From NCBI GenBank assembly GCA_021794255.1, contig JAJYRF010000062.1, forward strand, positions 1 through 7,537: 7,537 bases of DNA. The letters are read 5' to 3'. The notes under the pieces are model-generated. The model was not told the DNA's origin. It saw nothing but the letters and a program-made list of their open reading frames with translations, and ran no database searches. Made by a program: the position numbers and the translations under genes. How positions within the stretch are numbered: the first letter of the stretch is position 1; each line of letters opens with the position of its first letter. Source of the DNA: a bacterium. GTDB taxonomy: Bacteria; SZUA-79; Acidulodesulfobacterales; Acidulodesulfobacteraceae. Shown here one piece after another: positions 1 to 7,537 of the stretch.

Positions 1-2838
1 AAACATTTTTTAAGCAATCCACCCGAAGGATATATTTATAAAATCGCCAAACATCAAACGAAACTATCAATCAATAAGATATATCTAAAATTTAATCGTT
101 TTGTATTGGGTAACTATGTCAAAAGCGACGTCTTTTCGCCGGCCTTATATAAATCTATTTTTAAGCTTTTTAATTACGCAAGAAAAAACGCCGTCGATTT
201 TGAAATAATTGGTAAATTTATCCGCTCAAGGAATTACGGAGATACACTTTTTTATACAGCTAATTCCGAAGGATTATTATTATTTTCTACATATGCGCTT
301 ACGCTTCCGGATTTAAATCGTACGTGGATTATTGAAATCGAAGATGTTATAACTTTATTTGACCCGTTCTTAAAAAACGGAGATACTAAAGATATCGACA
401 TACATGGAGCGGGTTTTTTTAAGTTATTTAAGCGGCTATACGAATCCCCTCACTGCAAAAGAATTATAACCCATATGAAATCTACAGCCGACAGTATTCC
501 GTCTTTATTTGGCAGCGAATCGATAACTAATAAAATCTCCTACATTCCTCCGGCTGTCGATGTTCCTGTTAATATTAAAATTGATTATCCTAAAAATGAA
601 ATTAATATATTATTTTCAAATTCATGGAACCAACAAGAAGAAGGCTTCTTTCTTAGAGGAGGGATAGACGCTATTAAAGCATTCATATTTATAGCCAAAA
701 AATATCCCAACGTTTCGCTTATAATTAGATCAACTATTCCGGATAATGTTAAAACGCTCTTAAAAGACCTAATTCTTGAGAAAAGAATACAAATCTTCGA
801 AGATAAACTGGATTCAAAAAAATGGGACGAAATTAAAAGTAAGTGCCATATTTATTTATTACCCGCCGCAAGAATTCATGTTGCTTCTCTTCTTGAAGCT
901 ATGTCGTGCGGCATGGCCGTAATATGTTCGGACGGGTGGGGTTTTGAAGAATATATTGAAGACGGCGTAAACGGTCTAATCGTCAGCGGTCGCTATGGCA
1001 ATGTAAGCTGGATTGATTCCGAAAACGGTTTGCTTAGGGAATATTATAGTCCTATGTTTGCGGAAAACGAATCTGTTATTATTCAAATTATGGCAAAAAT
1101 AGAATATCTTATGGAAAATCCGGAAAGGTTTTTAGAAATAAGAAAGACGGCAAGGCAGACCGTTGAAGATAAATACTCCACCGCTAAATACGATAAATCC
1201 TTTAAAAGAGTGCTCGACGATATTTATTCTGAGGGTAATATAGGACATGCTTCTTTAAAAAATAAAGCCGAAAAAAAACATATAGACGATTCTATACTCC
1301 CCTTGTTTTTTGATGAATTAGTCTTAACGAAAGACGAAACAGGCAGGTATATTGTTAAAACAAGCGAAGACTATCATCTCGACAATGAGAATATTTTGTT
1401 TTCTTCATACGGCTATCTTGAATGCTTGGATTATATCAACCACGGTTTTAAATATGACGGCAATATTAAATTTAATGAAGCAATAATTCTTATAATTAAA
1501 AAAATATATAGATATATGTCGGTAATAAAAGGCAATAATAATTCAGGAGATAAAGGCCGTAAGTTAATAATATATGCCGGAAAAGTTAAACCGTTTGTTG
1601 ATACCAAAGTAGGAAGCCATCCCGTTTTTAATTTTGTTAATTATCCGCCTAAAGGTTATTCATTTAGATACCACGACGAATTTGATAATTATTTTTTTAT
1701 TAGGCTATATAGGTTAATATTTATTTACGTTCAAATTATATTCCTTGCTTCCAAGGCCATTGTTAAAGGGATACCCCTTAGCTTTGTGAAACATTTTTTT
1801 AAAACCAGAGGCGGCACGCAATATCAAGTCGAAATGCCCGTTGGTTCTAAAACTACCGTGCTTTATCCCACTTATCCGTTTACTTACGGACAACATTCAT
1901 GGTTTATCGAAATTGAAGATATGCTGACTTTAATGGTTCCCTTTTGCTATAACGGCAATCCTAATATTGAGCTAAACAAAGAAAGTTCAATCATTAGGAT
2001 GTTGGAAATAATGTTTGAATCGTCCCGATTTAAGGGAGTTATATGCCACCTCAGATCGACTGCCGACGGTCTTCGTGAAATATATAGCGGGAATCGGAAA
2101 GTAAAAGAAAAGATTTTTCATATACCGCTCGGCATGTCGTTAGACTCTCCGGTTTATTTTCAAAAAAAGAACATAACGGATAATAAAAAAATCAAGATAC
2201 TTTTTATGAGCGGATGGGCACAAGATCCAAGAGCGTCATTTAGGAGAGGTCTTTTAAATGCCTTGGAATCTTTCGATCGTTTATGTAAAATAAACGACGA
2301 TGCAGTATTAATTTTAAGGACCAAGCTTCCTTCTTTAAGAAAAAAGTATATGGATTTGGTTGAAGACGGCATCAAAAGCCGTAGGATTGTGCTTATAGAA
2401 AATAAGTTGTTAAAATCGGATATTGAAAAAATTTATTATGATTCTGATATTCTTTTGTTTCCGGCTTACAGAATGGCCGTTACTACGCTCCTGCAGGCAA
2501 TGGCGCATTCTCTTGCTATTGTAGCAAGCGATGGATATGGAATCGAAGAGTATATCAAAGACGGCGTCAATGGACTTATTGCCCGCGGCATTTATGGGAA
2601 AAGCGGATATATTGACAAACAAGGAATATTCAGGGAGGACTATGTTTGTTCTTTGGATATAAATGAAGAAGTAGTTAATAATTCGGTTAGATTGATGAAA
2701 TTATTGATTGAAGATAAAAAATTGATGAACTCTATTCAATTTAACGCAAGGAAAGCCGTTGATGATGAATTTTCGATGGAAATGTGGAATAAAAGATTTG
2801 CCGATGTTTTGGCTTATAGCAGTAAGTTAAAGGGTTAA
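1..2838 (+). CDS. Tandem double-domain GT4-like glycosyltransferase, 5' partial
   Basis: The reading frame is open from base 1, giving 945 codons before TAA. The TTG at 106 lies inside the protein and is not its start: residues before it (NPPEGY, 7-12) match YPPKGY in the second half. Two GT-B-type units can be aligned by eye. Unit 1 has WIIEIED from residue 109, a STAD motif, an ILF strand opening the C-terminal Rossmann half, and EAMSCG (Glu 299) followed by SDGWGFEEYIEDGVNGLI. Unit 2 repeats the series with WFIEIED from residue 634, STAD, ILF, and QAMAHS (Gln 832) followed by SDGYGIEEYIKDGVNGLI. About 120-140 poorly conserved residues link them. The family transfers sugars from nucleotide donors to glycan acceptors, usually in the cytoplasm. 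In unit 2 the Glu of the conserved EAM segment is Gln, so that copy may be weakened or non-catalytic. Donor and acceptor cannot be read from the sequence. Confidence 0.88.
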   Translation, partial: KHFLSNPPEGYIYKIAKHQTKLSINKIYLKFNRFVLGNYVKSDVFSPALYKSIFKLFNYARKNAVDFEIIGKFIRSRNYGDTLFYTANSEGLLLFSTYALTLPDLNRTWIIEIEDVITLFDPFLKNGDTKDIDIHGAGFFKLFKRLYESPHCKRIITHMKSTADSIPSLFGSESITNKISYIPPAVDVPVNIKIDYPKNEINILFSNSWNQQEEGFFLRGGIDAIKAFIFIAKKYPNVSLIIRSTIPDNVKTLLKDLILEKRIQIFEDKLDSKKWDEIKSKCHIYLLPAARIHVASLLEAMSCGMAVICSDGWGFEEYIEDGVNGLIVSGRYGNVSWIDSENGLLREYYSPMFAENESVIIQIMAKIEYLMENPERFLEIRKTARQTVEDKYSTAKYDKSFKRVLDDIYSEGNIGHASLKNKAEKKHIDDSILPLFFDELVLTKDETGRYIVKTSEDYHLDNENILFSSYGYLECLDYINHGFKYDGNIKFNEAIILIIKKIYRYMSVIKGNNNSGDKGRKLIIYAGKVKPFVDTKVGSHPVFNFVNYPPKGYSFRYHDEFDNYFFIRLYRLIFIYVQIIFLASKAIVKGIPLSFVKHFFKTRGGTQYQVEMPVGSKTTVLYPTYPFTYGQHSWFIEIEDMLTLMVPFCYNGNPNIELNKESSIIRMLEIMFESSRFKGVICHLRSTADGLREIYSGNRKVKEKIFHIPLGMSLDSPVYFQKKNITDNKKIKILFMSGWAQDPRASFRRGLLNALESFDRLCKINDDAVLILRTKLPSLRKKYMDLVEDGIKSRRIVLIENKLLKSDIEKIYYDSDILLFPAYRMAVTTLLQAMAHSLAIVASDGYGIEEYIKDGVNGLIARGIYGKSGYIDKQGIFREDYVCSLDINEEVVNNSVRLMKLLIEDKKLMNSIQFNARKAVDDEFSMEMWNKRFADVLAYSSKLKG

Positions 2839-2842
2839 ATCT

Positions 2843-2947
2843 GTGGAAATTAATTTTAAGGCCAGTCCAATTATTGCAATTATTGTTCCTTGCTTTAATG
2901 AAGAAAATGTGTTACTAGAAACATCAAAAAAGCTGGGAACGGCTTAA
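2843..2947 (+). pseudogene. Truncated 5' stub of a GT2 glycosyltransferase
   Basis: A GTG start is preceded by AAAGGG (2829-2834), 8 nt upstream, and lies 4 nt after the stop of the preceding gene. It opens a 34-codon frame ending in TAA. The peptide contains IIAIIVPCFNEENVLLETSKK, the N-terminal nucleotide-binding strand of GT2 enzymes. It matches LILVTPCYNEEEVLQETSKR at residues 19-38 of the intact gene that follows. Everything after the KKL position is missing: no DDGS or DxD motif follows in any frame before 3029. The good ribosome site and coupling to the upstream gene suggest this was a real gene of the native locus. Its codons (GCC, CTG, ACG) look more like the flanking genes than the AT-rich block. 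It is most likely a recombination scar. A functional 34-residue peptide seems unlikely. Confidence 0.75.
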
Positions 2948-3028
2948 AATAAACATTAACAATAGATAACACCATGTTAATTAAAATTATTAATCAAAAA
3001 AGGAAAAGAATTTAGACGAAATTATATT

Positions 3029-4030
3029 ATGAATACTTATTTGAATAAAAATGAAATATCAAAATCAATTGATTTGCCAGTTCTAATATTAGTTACACCT
3101 TGTTACAACGAAGAAGAAGTATTACAAGAGACATCAAAAAGACTAATATCAATTTTAGATGAATTGATTAAAGAAAAGAAGATTTCTAAAAATAGTTGTA
3201 TGATTTTTGTTGATGACGGAAGTCGTGATAAAACTTGGGATAACATTGAGTATTTATCAAATAAAACAAAATATATAAAGGGCATAAAACTTTCTAAAAA
3301 TGTAGGTCATCAAATAGCTCTAATAGCTGGTATGGAATATGCTGTAGATAAATGTGATTGCCTTATAACGCTTGACGTTGATTTACAAGACGATGTAGAG
3401 GCTATTAAGTCAATGATTGTAGAGTATAATAGCGGTTATGAAGTGGTATATGGAGTCAGATCTAAGAGAGAAAAAGATGTTTTTTTTAAGAAATTTTCCG
3501 CAGAAATGTTCTATCATGTAATGAAACTTTTAGGCGTAAATATTATTTTTAATCATGCAGATTATCGACTTTTAAGTAAAAGAGCAACAATGTTTTTATT
3601 ATCATTTCAAGAAAGAAATATTTTTATTAGAGGATTAGTTCCCTTAATAGGGTTGCGAAGCACATCAGTTTATTATGAAAGGAATGAGAGATATTCAGGG
3701 GAATCTAAATATTCGCTATATAAAATGTTAAATTTTGCCTTGGATGGCATTACATCTTTTAGCATATTTCCTCTTCGTTTCATCTCTATGATAGGATTTA
3801 TAACATTTTTAACAAGCATATTAATGATTTTTTACGTGTTTTTTGTAAAGTTTTTTACTAACAAAGCATTGCCTGGTTGGGCATCCACTGTTTTACCAAT
3901 CTACTTTATAGGCGGTATCCAGTTGCTATCCTTAGGTATTATTGGAGAGTATTTAGGCAAAATATACAAAGAAACTAAAAGAAGGCCAAGATATTTTATA
4001 GAAAAAGAGGCTTTATATGAAAAAGATTGA
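3029..4030 (+). CDS. GtrB-like GT2 polyprenyl-phosphate glycosyltransferase
   Basis: This 333-residue protein has the full bacterial DPM1-like/GtrB layout. It has PCYNEEE (24-30), VDDGSRD (61-67), KNVGHQIAL (90-98), the metal-binding DVD in LDVDLQDD (116-118), HADYRLLS (176-183) and RYSGESKYSL (221-230). Two C-terminal membrane helices (about 251-273 and 287-309) are joined by a PGWAS loop, and the tail IGEYLGKIY plus RRPRY is typical of the family. The family moves a sugar from a nucleotide donor to undecaprenyl phosphate on the inner face of the membrane; which sugar is not evident. ATG 3029 is the only normal start after an in-frame stop at 2978. Its Shine-Dalgarno is poor: the nearest AGGAAA (3001-3006) is over 20 nt away. 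The next gene overlaps its end by 14 nt, so both are probably co-translated. The gene is AT-rich and appears to replace the truncated paralogue just upstream. Confidence 0.9.
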   Translation: MNTYLNKNEISKSIDLPVLILVTPCYNEEEVLQETSKRLISILDELIKEKKISKNSCMIFVDDGSRDKTWDNIEYLSNKTKYIKGIKLSKNVGHQIALIAGMEYAVDKCDCLITLDVDLQDDVEAIKSMIVEYNSGYEVVYGVRSKREKDVFFKKFSAEMFYHVMKLLGVNIIFNHADYRLLSKRATMFLLSFQERNIFIRGLVPLIGLRSTSVYYERNERYSGESKYSLYKMLNFALDGITSFSIFPLRFISMIGFITFLTSILMIFYVFFVKFFTNKALPGWASTVLPIYFIGGIQLLSLGIIGEYLGKIYKETKRRPRYFIEKEALYEKD

Positions 4031-4751
4031 TTTCGATGATTATGCTACAAAATATAATGATTTGATGCAAAAACAACATGTATTATTAGGAGATATTTCA
4101 TATTATAGCGAACATAAAGTTAAAATAACAAAAAATATAGTCAATAAATATTTTAAAAATAATAATTTTTTAAATATATTAGAGTATGGTTGCGGTATTG
4201 GAAGAAACTTACCTTATCTAAAAAAATATTTTCCAGAATCAAAAATATTTGCTTATGATATATCAACAGAAAGTTTAAAAATTGCAAAGATACAAAATCA
4301 AAATGTGCAATTTATATTTAAAGAAGATATTGAAAAATATAAAAATAAATTTGACCTTATTTTTGTTGCCGGCGTATATCATCATTTACCAATAAATATT
4401 AGAGAAAATATGACTTCTAAAATTAAAACGCTTTTATCTAAAGAGAAGGGGGTAGTTATTATTTTTGAACATAACAAATATAATCCGCTAACTAGGCTCA
4501 TGGTTAGCACTTGCGAATTCGATAATGATGCGATTTTGTTAACTAAGCAAGAATTAAAAATGCTATGTGAAAATAACGGATTTTGTCACATAAGAAGTGG
4601 TTATACCATGTTTGTACCCCCCATTTTTAAAAAATTTGCCTTTTTAGAAAAATTACTACATTGGTTTCCTTTAGGGGGGCAGTATTATATTGTATTAGCT
4701 GATACTACTAATAAAATTGAAAGGAAACGATGTTTGTTATATCATTATTAA
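4017..4751 (+). CDS. Class I SAM-dependent methyltransferase
   Basis: The 244-residue protein has a Rossmann-type methyltransferase core. Motif I is ILEYGCGIGRN (54-64), the SAM-ribose acidic residue is D81 in FAYDIS, a further acidic residue is D104, and motif IV/post-IV reads FDLIFVAGVYHHLP (112-125). The C-terminal part (FPLGGQYYIVLA) resembles the end strand of methyltransferases found in glycan clusters. ATG 4017 has AGAGG at 4006-4010, 6 nt upstream, and overlaps the preceding gene by 14 nt, which indicates tight coupling. By context it probably methylates a sugar or glycan precursor, but no residue identifies the acceptor. The last codons (about IERKRCLLYHY) run over a second ribosome site and start at 4721-4732, so the final residues may be read in parallel with the start of another gene. 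It is as AT-rich as its GT2 neighbour. Confidence 0.85.
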   Translation: MKKIDFDDYATKYNDLMQKQHVLLGDISYYSEHKVKITKNIVNKYFKNNNFLNILEYGCGIGRNLPYLKKYFPESKIFAYDISTESLKIAKIQNQNVQFIFKEDIEKYKNKFDLIFVAGVYHHLPINIRENMTSKIKTLLSKEKGVVIIFEHNKYNPLTRLMVSTCEFDNDAILLTKQELKMLCENNGFCHIRSGYTMFVPPIFKKFAFLEKLLHWFPLGGQYYIVLADTTNKIERKRCLLYHY

Positions 4752-4752
4752 T

Positions 4753-4838
4753 AACCCTCATAGTTTTTTTTGTTTAACCTTTTGGGAAATCGGTTTTGTG
4801 ATATATTATATCACGTAAACATAGAAACTATAAGGGTT
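4753..4838 (+). repeat. Interrupted inverted repeat: terminator or MITE-like element
   Basis: The left arm AACCCTCATAGTTT (4753-4766) pairs with the right arm AAACTATAAGGGTT (4825-4838) with one mismatch in 14. Pairing resumes imperfectly inward through GTTTA (4772-4776) and TAAAC (4816-4820). The right arm runs straight into seven T (4837-4843) and a T-rich tract to about 4854. On the + strand this could be an intrinsic terminator just after the methyltransferase stop, though its roughly 58-nt loop and AT-rich stem are unusual. The other reading is an 86-bp terminal-inverted-repeat element such as a MITE, or a solo insertion-sequence end. No clear target duplication is visible: TTATTA occurs at 4745-4750 and 4842-4847, but the surroundings are too AT-rich to judge. 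Confidence 0.6.
4798..4814. repeat. Perfect 17-nt palindrome inside the inverted repeat
   Basis: GTGATATATTATATCAC has two perfect 8-nt arms around a single central T. It sits nearly centred in the loop of the larger inverted repeat. It could be an inner hairpin of a composite terminator, an operator for a dimeric regulator, or part of a mobile element's core. Nothing in the window identifies a cognate protein. Confidence 0.55.
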
Positions 4839-4976
4839 TTTTTATTATTTTTTTATATATTAGGTAGTTCTAAATCGGGATTTGGGTTAACATCTATATA
4901 TCACAAATAATAAGCGGTGCGGTCTATACTCTAAGTGGCTTTTTGTTTGCAAAATATTTTGCTTTTAAATTTTAGA

Positions 4977-4982
4977 TATAAT
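4977..4982 (+). promoter_or_regulatory. Possible -10 box (TATAAT) before the membrane-protein gene
   Basis: A consensus TATAAT overlaps the first ATG (4981) of the large membrane-protein gene. If used, transcription would start near 4989 and favour the second in-frame ATG at 5002. No -35 box stands at 16-18 nt: TTGTTT at 4943 is too far and TTGCTT at 4959 too near. In DNA this AT-rich a chance match is quite possible. Confidence 0.25.
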
Positions 4983-6504
4983 GAAATATTTTAGGGGAAT
5001 AATGAAACATATATTTTCAAAATCATCGGTAAGATTTAGTGTTTTGATTGTTTTTTTTACATATTTTATTATTTCAATAATATATTGGATGCCACCTTTG
5101 TTTTCGTTTAACAATTATATAATAGGAATAGGTGGAGGGAAGGGTGATCCAGGAGCTTTTATTTGGTTTTTATCTTGGTGGCCATACGCCATACTTCACG
5201 GATTAAACCCTTTTTTAGAAAAGTATGCATGGGCACCATATGGTCAGAATTTAGCATGGGTCAATTCTATTCCTGCCTTAGCAATTTTTATGGGGCCAGT
5301 TACTTATTACTTTGGTCCTGTAGTTTCATATAACATTATAGCTTTACTTTCACCCCCTTTAGCTGCTTTAAGTATGTTTATTTTTACTTATTATTTTACT
5401 AAAAGACTTTTTCCTTCTTTTTTCGCAGGTTATTTTTTTGGGTTTTCATCTTACATGATTGGTGAATTAAGAGGTGCACCCAACCTATATGTTATTTTTC
5501 TTATACCTGTTTTGTTTTTAATTTGCATTATGTTTATGAAAAAGCAAATAAAAAAAACATATTTTATATTTTTTATGTGTATAACTTTAATTATTCAATT
5601 TTGCATTTCTCCGGAAATTTTTACTACAGTTACTTTTTTTGGTTTTATTTCCTGGGTAGTCGGAATTATTGTCTTTAGAAAAGATTATAAAAACTTTTTA
5701 TGTCTTTTTAAATATTTAGCGGTATCTTATTTTTTATCTTTTATTATATTATCGCCTTATTTTTACTATATGTATATAGGATTCTCTCAATTTTCTGCCC
5801 CATCGTCATTATTACTATATTATAATCGATATAATGTGGCAAATGTTCTTGAGTATATTATACCTACCCCTATTACATATTTAGGAGGTAATGCTTTTAT
5901 CCCTTTGACAAATTCATTTATTGGTAATTGGAATGAAATGGGGGCATATCTCGGATTGCCACTTATTGCTATATTGATTATATATATTATAAGAAATTGG
6001 GGTGCTAAACATGTAAAGTTTTTAAGTATAATGTTATTAGTAGTTTTTTTCGCATCTCTCGGAACACCTATTCGTGTTGGGGATATCAGTATTGGGCCAG
6101 GTCCAGGGATTTTGATTTTATTGATACCATTATTACATATAGCAACTCCAGTTAGATTTTCTATGTATATTAGTTTTATTGCATCTATTATAATAGCTCT
6201 TTTTTTAGGTAAATATAATAAATCTATTTTAGCTTATATCAGTGTGTTAATTGCAATTATTTTTATAATTCCAAATGTCCCGGGGAGATATAACAACTTT
6301 ATGGATTCTAAAATATCAATGCCAAAAATATTTAGTACCAAGGAGTATAAAAAGTTAATTTATCCAAATGAAAATATTTTAATTATTCCATTTGGTGTAA
6401 ATGGTTCAAGTATGTTTTATCAGGCTGTGGACAAATTTTATTACAGAACGCCGGATGGTTATCTTGGTCAATCGCCGCAGTATATTTTAAATTACCTATA
6501 TTAA
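4981..6504 (+). CDS. Multi-spanning GT-C-like membrane protein, frame ends early
   Basis: The 507-residue frame (500 if ATG 5002 is used) is very hydrophobic, with roughly ten membrane segments from residue 20 to about 435. It ends in a soluble, probably extracytoplasmic part. A first loop carries KGDPGAFIWFLSWWPYAI (54-71), then GLNPF (74-78) and WAPYGQNLAW (84-93). I recognise this GDP..WFL.WWPYAI..G.NPF...WAP.G.NL.W pattern from a widespread family of uncharacterised bacterial membrane proteins; an acidic residue in the first outer loop, here D56, is typical of GT-C glycosyltransferases. Beside a GtrB-like gene, a GtrC-like role (sugar transfer from undecaprenyl phosphate to a glycan) is plausible but inferred. 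The frame stops inside a conserved-looking C-terminal region (YRTPDGYLGQSPQ, then a TAA at 6502). The continuation is open in the -1 frame to 6776, which would give about 598 residues. Composition is AT-rich like the two preceding genes. Confidence 0.8.
   Translation: MKYFRGIMKHIFSKSSVRFSVLIVFFTYFIISIIYWMPPLFSFNNYIIGIGGGKGDPGAFIWFLSWWPYAILHGLNPFLEKYAWAPYGQNLAWVNSIPALAIFMGPVTYYFGPVVSYNIIALLSPPLAALSMFIFTYYFTKRLFPSFFAGYFFGFSSYMIGELRGAPNLYVIFLIPVLFLICIMFMKKQIKKTYFIFFMCITLIIQFCISPEIFTTVTFFGFISWVVGIIVFRKDYKNFLCLFKYLAVSYFLSFIILSPYFYYMYIGFSQFSAPSSLLLYYNRYNVANVLEYIIPTPITYLGGNAFIPLTNSFIGNWNEMGAYLGLPLIAILIIYIIRNWGAKHVKFLSIMLLVVFFASLGTPIRVGDISIGPGPGILILLIPLLHIATPVRFSMYISFIASIIIALFLGKYNKSILAYISVLIAIIFIIPNVPGRYNNFMDSKISMPKIFSTKEYKKLIYPNENILIIPFGVNGSSMFYQAVDKFYYRTPDGYLGQSPQYILNYLY
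4993..4998 (+). promoter_or_regulatory. Ribosome binding site favouring ATG 5002
   Basis: AGGGGA stands 3 nt before the in-frame ATG at 5002, while the upstream ATG at 4981 has only TTTTAGATATA in front and no Shine-Dalgarno. The spacing is short but the purine match is the best in the region. It suggests that translation starts at codon 8 of the longer reading frame. Confidence 0.45.
6486..6492 (+). other. Slippery heptamer T_TTA_AAT at the frame break
   Basis: In the zero frame of the membrane-protein gene these bases read T TTA AAT, which fits the X_XXY_YYZ pattern of -1 ribosomal frameshift sites. Re-pairing as TTT AAA continues into the 94-codon frame ending at 6776. The zero-frame stop is only 10 nt downstream. 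I see no convincing stimulatory hairpin or upstream Shine-Dalgarno, so a simple one-base deletion here, or a base-calling slip in the T/A runs, explains it as well. Confidence 0.4.
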
Positions 6505-6776
6505 ATACTTTATATAATAATAAAATAATACCACATTTACGCTCTAATTTATTATATTATATAAAATATAGTAAAATAAATGCTATATTAATAATAGGTA
6601 AAAGAGAACAATTAGCATGGGAAAAAATTTTTCAATTATCACATATTTGTATAGCTAAGCATAAAATATCTAGAAATGTTGCAATTTTCTTAATTCATAA
6701 TAAAATAATTTTAAGCCATTCATTTAATTGCTATTATAATTATAATAATGTATTAGTTCCTAATTCGTGGAAATAA
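6492..6776 (+). pseudogene. Out-of-frame C-terminal tail of the membrane protein
   Basis: From 6492 the -1 frame is open for 94 codons to TAA at 6774-6776. That is long for DNA this AT-rich, and it begins where the main frame ends. It reads LPILNTLYNNKIIPHLRS and continues to NAILIIGKREQLAWEKIF. This resembles the end domain I recall for such membrane proteins, where a short helix is followed by a hydrophobic strand and a charged, Trp-containing helix. It has no start codon or ribosome site of its own near the junction, so it is best read as the displaced end of the preceding gene and not as a separate gene. It fills the stretch to the next gene, leaving a 22-nt spacer. Confidence 0.7.
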
Positions 6777-6798
6777 AAAATAAAACAACTATATACAC

Positions 6799-7537
6799 AT
6801 GGAAACAATTACCACCGAATATTTAATTATCGGCGCAGGCATTGTCGGTTTGTCTGTCGCCAAAAAAATTAAAGAAAAGCATCCAAACGCCCATGTTTTA
6901 GTAATAGAAAAAGAAGAAGATATTGCGCGCCACGCCAGCGGAAGAAACAGCGGGGTTCTGCACGCCGGATTTTATTACACTAAGGAGAGTTTGAAAGCAA
7001 GGTTTACGAAAGAAGGCAACGGCGAACTGAAAAAATTCTGCGAAGAAAACGGTTTAAAAATAAACAGGTGCGGCAAGGTCGTAGTCGCATTAGACGAAGA
7101 CGAACTAAGGGTGCTGTACGAACTCGAAAAAAGGGCTAAAGCAAACGGCGTAGAAGCAACCATAATAAGCGAAAAAGAGTTGGAATTATACGAGCCTAAC
7201 GCAATAACGCATAAAAAAGCGCTGTGGTCGCCTAATACCGCGACTATCGACCCGATAGAGGTTTTATATGCACTAAAAAACAGGCTTATTCAAAACGGCG
7301 TAAATATATTATTTAAAACTCCGTATCTAAAAAAGATAGATAAAAACACGGTGTCTGCCGGATATAAAAAAATTAAAGCTAAAAAAATAATAAACGCCTC
7401 CGGTTTATATGCTGATAAAATAGCAAAAGATTTCGGTTTTTCAAAAAATTACACGATAATACCGTTTAAAGGCATTTACCTTAAATATACGGGCATGGAC
7501 AAACCCATAAAAACAAATATCTACCCGACCCCAAACT
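6799..7537 (+). CDS. lhgO: LhgO/L2HGDH-like FAD-dependent oxidoreductase, 3' partial
   Basis: The first 246 codons are present; the family is about 400 residues long, so the C-terminal part lies beyond the right edge. The N-terminus has the dinucleotide fold YLIIGAGIVGLS (GxGxxG at 12-17) with an acidic strand end LVIEKE (E37). The stretch HASGRNSGVLHAGFYYTKES (45-64) closely follows the SGxNSGV.H.G.YY..GSLKA signature of L-2-hydroxyglutarate dehydrogenases and oxidases. YTIIPFKGIYLK (218-229) and NIYPTPN at the edge also fit. The family oxidises L-2-hydroxyglutarate to 2-oxoglutarate, but relatives act on other 2-hydroxy acids, so the substrate is not certain. ATG 6799 is the only usable start, since an in-frame TAA lies at 6781, yet no Shine-Dalgarno precedes it. 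Its richer G/C codon use matches the first gene in the window and not the block between them. Confidence 0.85.
   Translation, partial: METITTEYLIIGAGIVGLSVAKKIKEKHPNAHVLVIEKEEDIARHASGRNSGVLHAGFYYTKESLKARFTKEGNGELKKFCEENGLKINRCGKVVVALDEDELRVLYELEKRAKANGVEATIISEKELELYEPNAITHKKALWSPNTATIDPIEVLYALKNRLIQNGVNILFKTPYLKKIDKNTVSAGYKKIKAKKIINASGLYADKIAKDFGFSKNYTIIPFKGIYLKYTGMDKPIKTNIYPTPN

Follow-up and report, generated by a model that had tools for sequence, protein, structure and literature searches.

A putative 5′ stub of a GT2 glycosyltransferase gene beside a low-GC gene block in an uncultured bacterium

Short 5′ gene fragments in polysaccharide loci have been described before. Pneumococcal cps loci, with the exception of those of serotypes 25A, 25F, and 38, carry an aliD pseudogene that corresponds to the first 153-174 nucleotides (nt) of the 1,959-nt aliD gene (PMC5111408). 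In the portion of that source drawn on here, exchange is not stated to be the maker of the fragment. Polysaccharide modification genes can also move as a cluster: the gtrA-gtrB-gtrIC cluster of Shigella flexneri 1c was gained by phage, and integrase and tRNA-Pro genes are located at its flank (PMC4924310).

We analyzed a 7,537-nt stretch of DNA, hereafter named the window, in which a short open reading frame (ORF), the stub, lies between a double GT4 gene and an intact GT2 gene (Table 1). Like the aliD pseudogene, the stub is a short 5′ gene fragment left in a polysaccharide locus. In contrast to aliD, which encodes a peptide-binding protein and is known at full length in commensal relatives (PMC5111408), the stub belongs to a GT2 gene, and a full-length counterpart was not found in any relative. 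Most likely, it is another 5′ gene stub of the aliD kind, present in an uncultured bacterium as debris of ordinary gene turnover. The original prediction had described the mechanism as rarely caught; the kind is not rare, since 5′ gene stubs in capsule loci are already in print (PMC5111408, the portion used here).

The likeness to the gtrIC cluster is that a GtrB-type GT2 is accompanied by further glycosylation genes, which would have been acquired by transfer; moreover, a related gene pair in genome G006 comes after an integrase gene and a tRNA-Leu gene, as gtrIC is near integrase and tRNA-Pro genes (PMC4924310). Unlike gtr clusters, the window has no GtrA match (E ≤ 1 in Pfam) or integrase among six window proteins, and a methyltransferase gene is placed between its GT2 gene and its hydrophobic ORF.

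Table 1. Features of the window
Feature	Position	Strand	Basis
Double GT4 glycosyltransferase gene, extending beyond the window at its 5′ end	1..2838	+	Pfam PF00534 and PF13692, two stretches
GT2 stub, initial part of a GtrB-like GT2 gene	2843..2947	+	Alignment scores, profile, weak Pfam match
ACATCAAAAA in the stub, conserved codons	2921..2930	+	Codon alignment, shuffles, tile comparison
Spacer, 17% GC, 81 nt, no GT2 body detectable in any frame	2948..3028	+	GC, alignment, frame stops
Intact GtrB/ArnC/PgfS-like GT2 gene	3029..4030	+	PF00535, 76.8 bits (gathering score 23.3, reached)
ACATCAAAAA in the intact GT2, homologous codons	3131..3140	+	Codon alignment, window word count
SAM-dependent methyltransferase gene	4017..4751	+	PF13489 and others
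Hydrophobic ORF, no Pfam or NCBIfam match	4981..6504	+	36-40% identical to ORFs after GT2 in two relatives
Right flank common to three relatives, similarity starting at 6772	6772..7537	+	Nucleotide comparison
LhgO-like FAD oxidoreductase gene, running off the window	6799 on	+	Pfam, locus comparison

The stub and the intact GT2 gene

The stub starts with GTG at position 2843, comprises 34 codons, and ends with TAA at 2945-2947. A sequence resembling a ribosome-binding site (AAGGG, 2830-2834) is located 8 nt upstream of the GTG, which itself is only 4 nt past the end of the double GT4 gene, an operon-like spacing. The motif ETSKK of the stub is paralleled by ETSKR in the intact GT2. These features, i.e., a GTG frame with a good ribosome site encoding the first 34 residues of a GT2 enzyme, the motif pair, and a shared 10-nt stretch present twice at a distance of 210 nt, had been predicted and were all confirmed in the sequence. 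The accompanying term "decapitated", however, has the damage the wrong way round: the N-terminus was kept and the body was lost.

Local alignment of the stub with 120 GT2s gave a best score of 89, and a score of 82 with the neighboring GT2. In 200 shuffles of the stub, the highest score over the 40 top-scoring GT2s was 54, and 2000 shuffles aligned with the neighboring GT2 alone gave at most 45. With a profile built from 119 GT2s, from which the window's own GT2 was left out, the stub was recovered at E = 3e-6 when searched together with 4618 frames. The Pfam match to PF00535 (13.5 bits, E 0.069) did not reach the gathering score of 23.3, as expected for 34 residues. Because the score of 89 stands against shuffled maxima of 54, the homology to the start of the full-length family goes beyond chance, and the stub is a remnant of a GT2 gene. 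In a 34-residue piece the greater part of the GT-A fold is absent, together with the Asp-rich metal-binding motif that comes later in it, and the stub product should therefore have no enzyme activity.

A remnant of this kind could also have arisen by a tandem duplication that took in only the beginning of the neighboring GT2 gene, with subsequent divergence, and the 79% identity over 43 nt at a spacing of 210 nt would fit such an origin. We nevertheless consider it very unlikely: 17 of the 120 GT2s retrieved by the protein search outscore the neighbor in alignment with the stub, and the residues ahead of the PCxNEE motif differ between the two.

The 43-nt stretch (2888-2930 versus 3098-3140) ends with the 10-mer ACATCAAAAA, which the original prediction took for a fossil breakpoint. 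Shuffled windows seldom contain this exact word twice (2 of 200); the doubling and the 43-nt similarity are explained by the position of both copies at homologous codons of homologous genes. In the codon alignment of stub and intact GT2, 46 of 75 nt agree, and a run of at least 10 nt arises in 22% of the codon shuffles of this alignment. Runs of this size are also common elsewhere: at least 10 nt are shared with the stub by 16 of 114 unrelated tiles (180 nt each) taken from the window and by the starts of five out of nine GT2 genes from other genomes (14, 14, 14, 11, and 11 nt), eight of the nine having come via the stub search and thus being biased toward stub-like proteins. We left out a tenth entry, L013, which is not a GT2. 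Both copies of the 10-mer survive, and therefore no recombination between them is recorded. A breakpoint at this word was rejected on the basis of the codon shuffles, the unrelated tiles, and the other GT2 gene starts; judged from these comparisons, ACATCAAAAA is a conserved codon run.

The 98 nt that follow the 10-mer did not align with GT2 bodies (118 of the 120 used) better than shuffled sequence (95 of 200 shuffles scored as high), and in comparison with whole GT2s 49 of 60 shuffles scored as high. A decayed GT2 body was thus not detected in the spacer, where the score is at shuffle level. In the frame of the stub, four in-frame stops precede the start of the intact GT2. Because the spacer scores like shuffles and stops are present in all frames, the body of the stub appears to be gone and not merely out of frame.

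For the same region, we also weighed whether the stub is a small ORF with a function of its own or belongs to a recoded gene. The heptamer A AAA AAG is in the right, slippery phase at 2926-2932, the AAGGG is suitably placed, and the stub and the intact GT2 share one frame. However, a -1 shift meets a stop within seven codons, and a read-through product would encounter the four stops ahead of the GT2; with stops in every frame, recoding and read-through were rejected. Furthermore, no close relative of the stub was found in the 30 genomes of the group: the protein search yielded weak matches in 10 of 30, of which the best had E 0.026; each of them falls within a longer open frame (255-679 amino acids, aa). 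A functional small ORF or recoding is therefore extremely unlikely.

The edge at 6772 and the low-GC block

A search of genome contigs with the FAD gene revealed ten loci, three of which were close (L001, L002, and L003, with 97, 97, and 95% protein identity). Their similarity to the window is confined to 6772-7537 (97.1, 97.1, and 94.6% nt identity) and ends abruptly at 6772. The last upstream frame of the window has its stop at 6774-6776, beside this edge. Because L001 and L002 share 99.8% identity along most of their length, and L003 is 96.6% identical to L001 in the 1.4 kb before the edge that its sequence covers, the three loci represent one alternative upstream allele, not three. From motifs recognized by eye, we take the genes of this allele to be ABC-exporter-like, glycosyltransferase-like, and radical-SAM-like; genes 3′ of the FAD gene in L003, recognized in the same way, are presumably of the sugar-nucleotide type. 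The right flank is not universal either, since the FAD gene was detected in only 3 of the 30 genomes of the group (E ≤ 1e-40). As far as these alignments go, the neighboring DNA differs between relatives with a sharp edge at 6772, and an exchange is visible on the right side only.

Two further differences were seen among the relatives. Compared to L001, L002 contains an extra 1129 nt (within 7526-9122) between two copies of a 234-nt stretch (L001 8889-9122), a fresh insertion between near-identical genomes. The inserted ORF (7781-9151) has no Pfam match, and its 3′ end is a copy of the C-terminal part of the neighboring gene. In L003, two overlapping ORFs (686-1346) are the split form of a methyltransferase-like ORF that is uninterrupted in L001 (9257-9913).

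From 2948 to 6774, the genes are poorer in GC than their neighbors on both sides, with values of 0.25-0.29 for the three block genes against 0.343 for the GT4 gene and 0.388 for the FAD gene; the stub has 0.333 and the spacer 0.173. Composition is a hint only, because 400-nt windows inside the GT4 gene (0.29 to 0.39) also fall to 0.29. The intact GT2 did not reach the cut-offs of the PgfS and ArnC equivalogs NF047588 (233 versus 500 bits) and NF007986 (148 versus 529 bits). Its own entry aside, none of the 120 relatives listed exceeds 68% identity, and the named ones span several phyla. By analogy to GtrB and ArnC, this putative enzyme probably charges polyprenyl phosphate for the hydrophobic protein. 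The hydrophobic ORF is probably broken near the 3′ end; comparison of its tail with the G006 homologue was collinear but weak (E 0.37). A seeming frameshift was noted near 6480-6504, from where another frame is open to the stop at 6774-6776. By eye, we also saw AACCCTCATAGTTT (4753-4766) and AAACTATAAGGGTT (4825-4838), complementary at 13 of 14 positions, 3′ of the methyltransferase gene. This pair (4753-4838) is a possible terminator or small mobile element; its complementarity was confirmed in the sequence, and the repeat searches had not listed it.

A GT2 with 37-38% identity, followed by a homologue of the hydrophobic ORF, was found in G006 and G016 (2 of 30 genomes at E ≤ 1e-15), and a third homologue of the hydrophobic ORF is located at the contig end of the FAD locus of G003. 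In G006, a tRNA-Leu gene, a phage integrase gene, the GT2 gene, and a 724-aa hydrophobic ORF are arranged in a row (L036, 8903-13709). Because this pair comes after the integrase and tRNA-Leu genes, such GT2/hydrophobic pairs may be mobile. The pair in G016 (L037, about 9870-12340) is broken, with three TAA codons in the GT2 match and the hydrophobic part in several frames.

The block itself could be a mobile element that, on inserting, interrupted the older GT2 gene where the stub now ends. It would then be a non-autonomous GT2-methyltransferase-hydrophobic cassette without an enzyme of its own, marked by 14-nt imperfect inverted repeats (13/14 matches), one arm being on the end of the stub (2937-2950) and the other at 6708-6721. 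If true, the block with its 14-nt repeats would be a mobile cassette for swapping surface sugars. When the edges were set to 2930-3040 and 6700-6790, an equal match arose 72 times in 2000 shuffles and 22 times in 2000 random placements. None arose in 150 shuffles or 138 placements for narrow edges that had been chosen with the pair already known, and the test with 2000 shuffles is the fairer one. However, the repeat was picked after the fact from 27 pairs, and with wider edges 184 of 2000 shuffles reached an equal match. The searches for repeats at the block edges, one of them limited to 400 nt apart, yielded only this weak pair. In addition, the repeat word is present in 0 of 44 loci, no transposase was found beside the missing integrase among the six window proteins scanned in Pfam, and the right arm is 51 nt inside the edge at 6772. 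We consider such an insertion highly improbable.

The double GT4 gene and the origin of the stub

Relatives of the double GT4 protein were found with 97% (P0001), 89% (P0002), and 57% (P0003) identity. The double GT4 was not detected in the 30 genomes of the group (order and phylum being the same 30), in the whole genomes of the three relatives (E ≤ 1e-3), or in five further genomes (E ≤ 1e-20). With the two best candidates per genome scored, 0 of 395 genomes from the phylum of the L006 genome and 3 of 395 genomes from the phylum of the L010 genome matched at E ≤ 1e-40. The latter three proteins have a single C-terminal GT4 region that is matched by both halves of the query, and of the neighboring ORFs considered (90 aa or longer) none fits the GT2 profile (E ≤ 1e-3); these three are thus uninformative about the position after a double GT4. 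These genome searches were run without a known positive, and an empty result shows little. Because no examined genome has a double GT4 like that of the window, no case of a full gtrB of more than 80% identity directly after it was found.

The matches listed for the DNA at 2800-3040 were all short; 30 of 30 genomes gave one at E ≤ 1, and the best among those listed was 26 nt long (E 7e-4) and in the AT-rich spacer. Among 13 candidate full-length proteins starting like the stub, none matched at E ≤ 10 in a search made weak by its word prefilter. The double GT4, the intact GT2, and the degenerate stub pattern were not found in the viral contigs searched. When contig sizes of P0002-P0004 (7106, 4546, and 7206) were compared for adjacency to a GT2, no size match was detected among 120 listed of 7999 GT2 matches.

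The double GT4 is absent from the 30 genomes of the group that the right flank is part of, which raises the question of an assembly chimera, in which the left and right parts would stem from different genomes of a metagenome. A chimera is very improbable, however: the shared 10-mer is far too short for a join by an assembler, and both copies are present. Moreover, GT4 cluster P0001 (longest contig 7878) and GT2 cluster P0056 (100% identity, 10 contigs, longest 7843) are on contigs of about the size of the window, which may point to other copies of the same join.

The best explanation, which we regard as probable though far from certain, is that the stub represents the defunct 5′ portion of a GtrB-like GT2 gene from a double-GT4 operon, whose body was lost in a cassette turnover that brought the low-GC block. 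A GtrB-like GT2 gene would once have followed the double GT4 gene and been cotranscribed with it in one operon. Cassette turnover would then have placed the block (GT2, methyltransferase, and hydrophobic ORF) between the stub and the shared flank at 6772, and the old GT2 body would have been lost during that turnover. We infer that a single event removed the body and brought in the block, with the left junction between about 2931 and 3028. That G006 and G016 also carry a GT2 gene paired with a homologue of the hydrophobic ORF favors cassette turnover. Against it, no relative has a full GT2 gene after a double GT4 (30 group genomes, none with a double GT4), and the right edge is defined by one alternative allele. 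Because the double GT4 is missing from the group, the stub and the GT4 gene may also have arrived together already broken.

Loss of the body by a separate deletion, before or after the arrival of the block and unrelated to it, would be compatible with a left junction that was not located and that nothing ties to the edge at 6772. Such a deletion is unlikely, since two events would be needed, and the low-GC stretch begins right after the stub.

The original prediction of an exchange of DNA near the stub is thus supported by the sharp start of similarity to three relatives at base 6772 and by the lower GC of the block genes. Its further claim, that a native GT2 gene was replaced by an incoming one, is not supported: the double GT4 itself is absent from 30 of 30 group genomes and may therefore be as foreign as the low-GC block.

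With cassette turnover as the preferred explanation, the locus would represent a polysaccharide-type cluster of an uncultured lineage that swaps gene blocks, with an edge beside a stop codon and debris left behind, a pattern familiar from streptococci and enteric bacteria. Were the left junction located in a sister population, the exchange would be readable base by base, which would confirm a known process and not reveal a new one.
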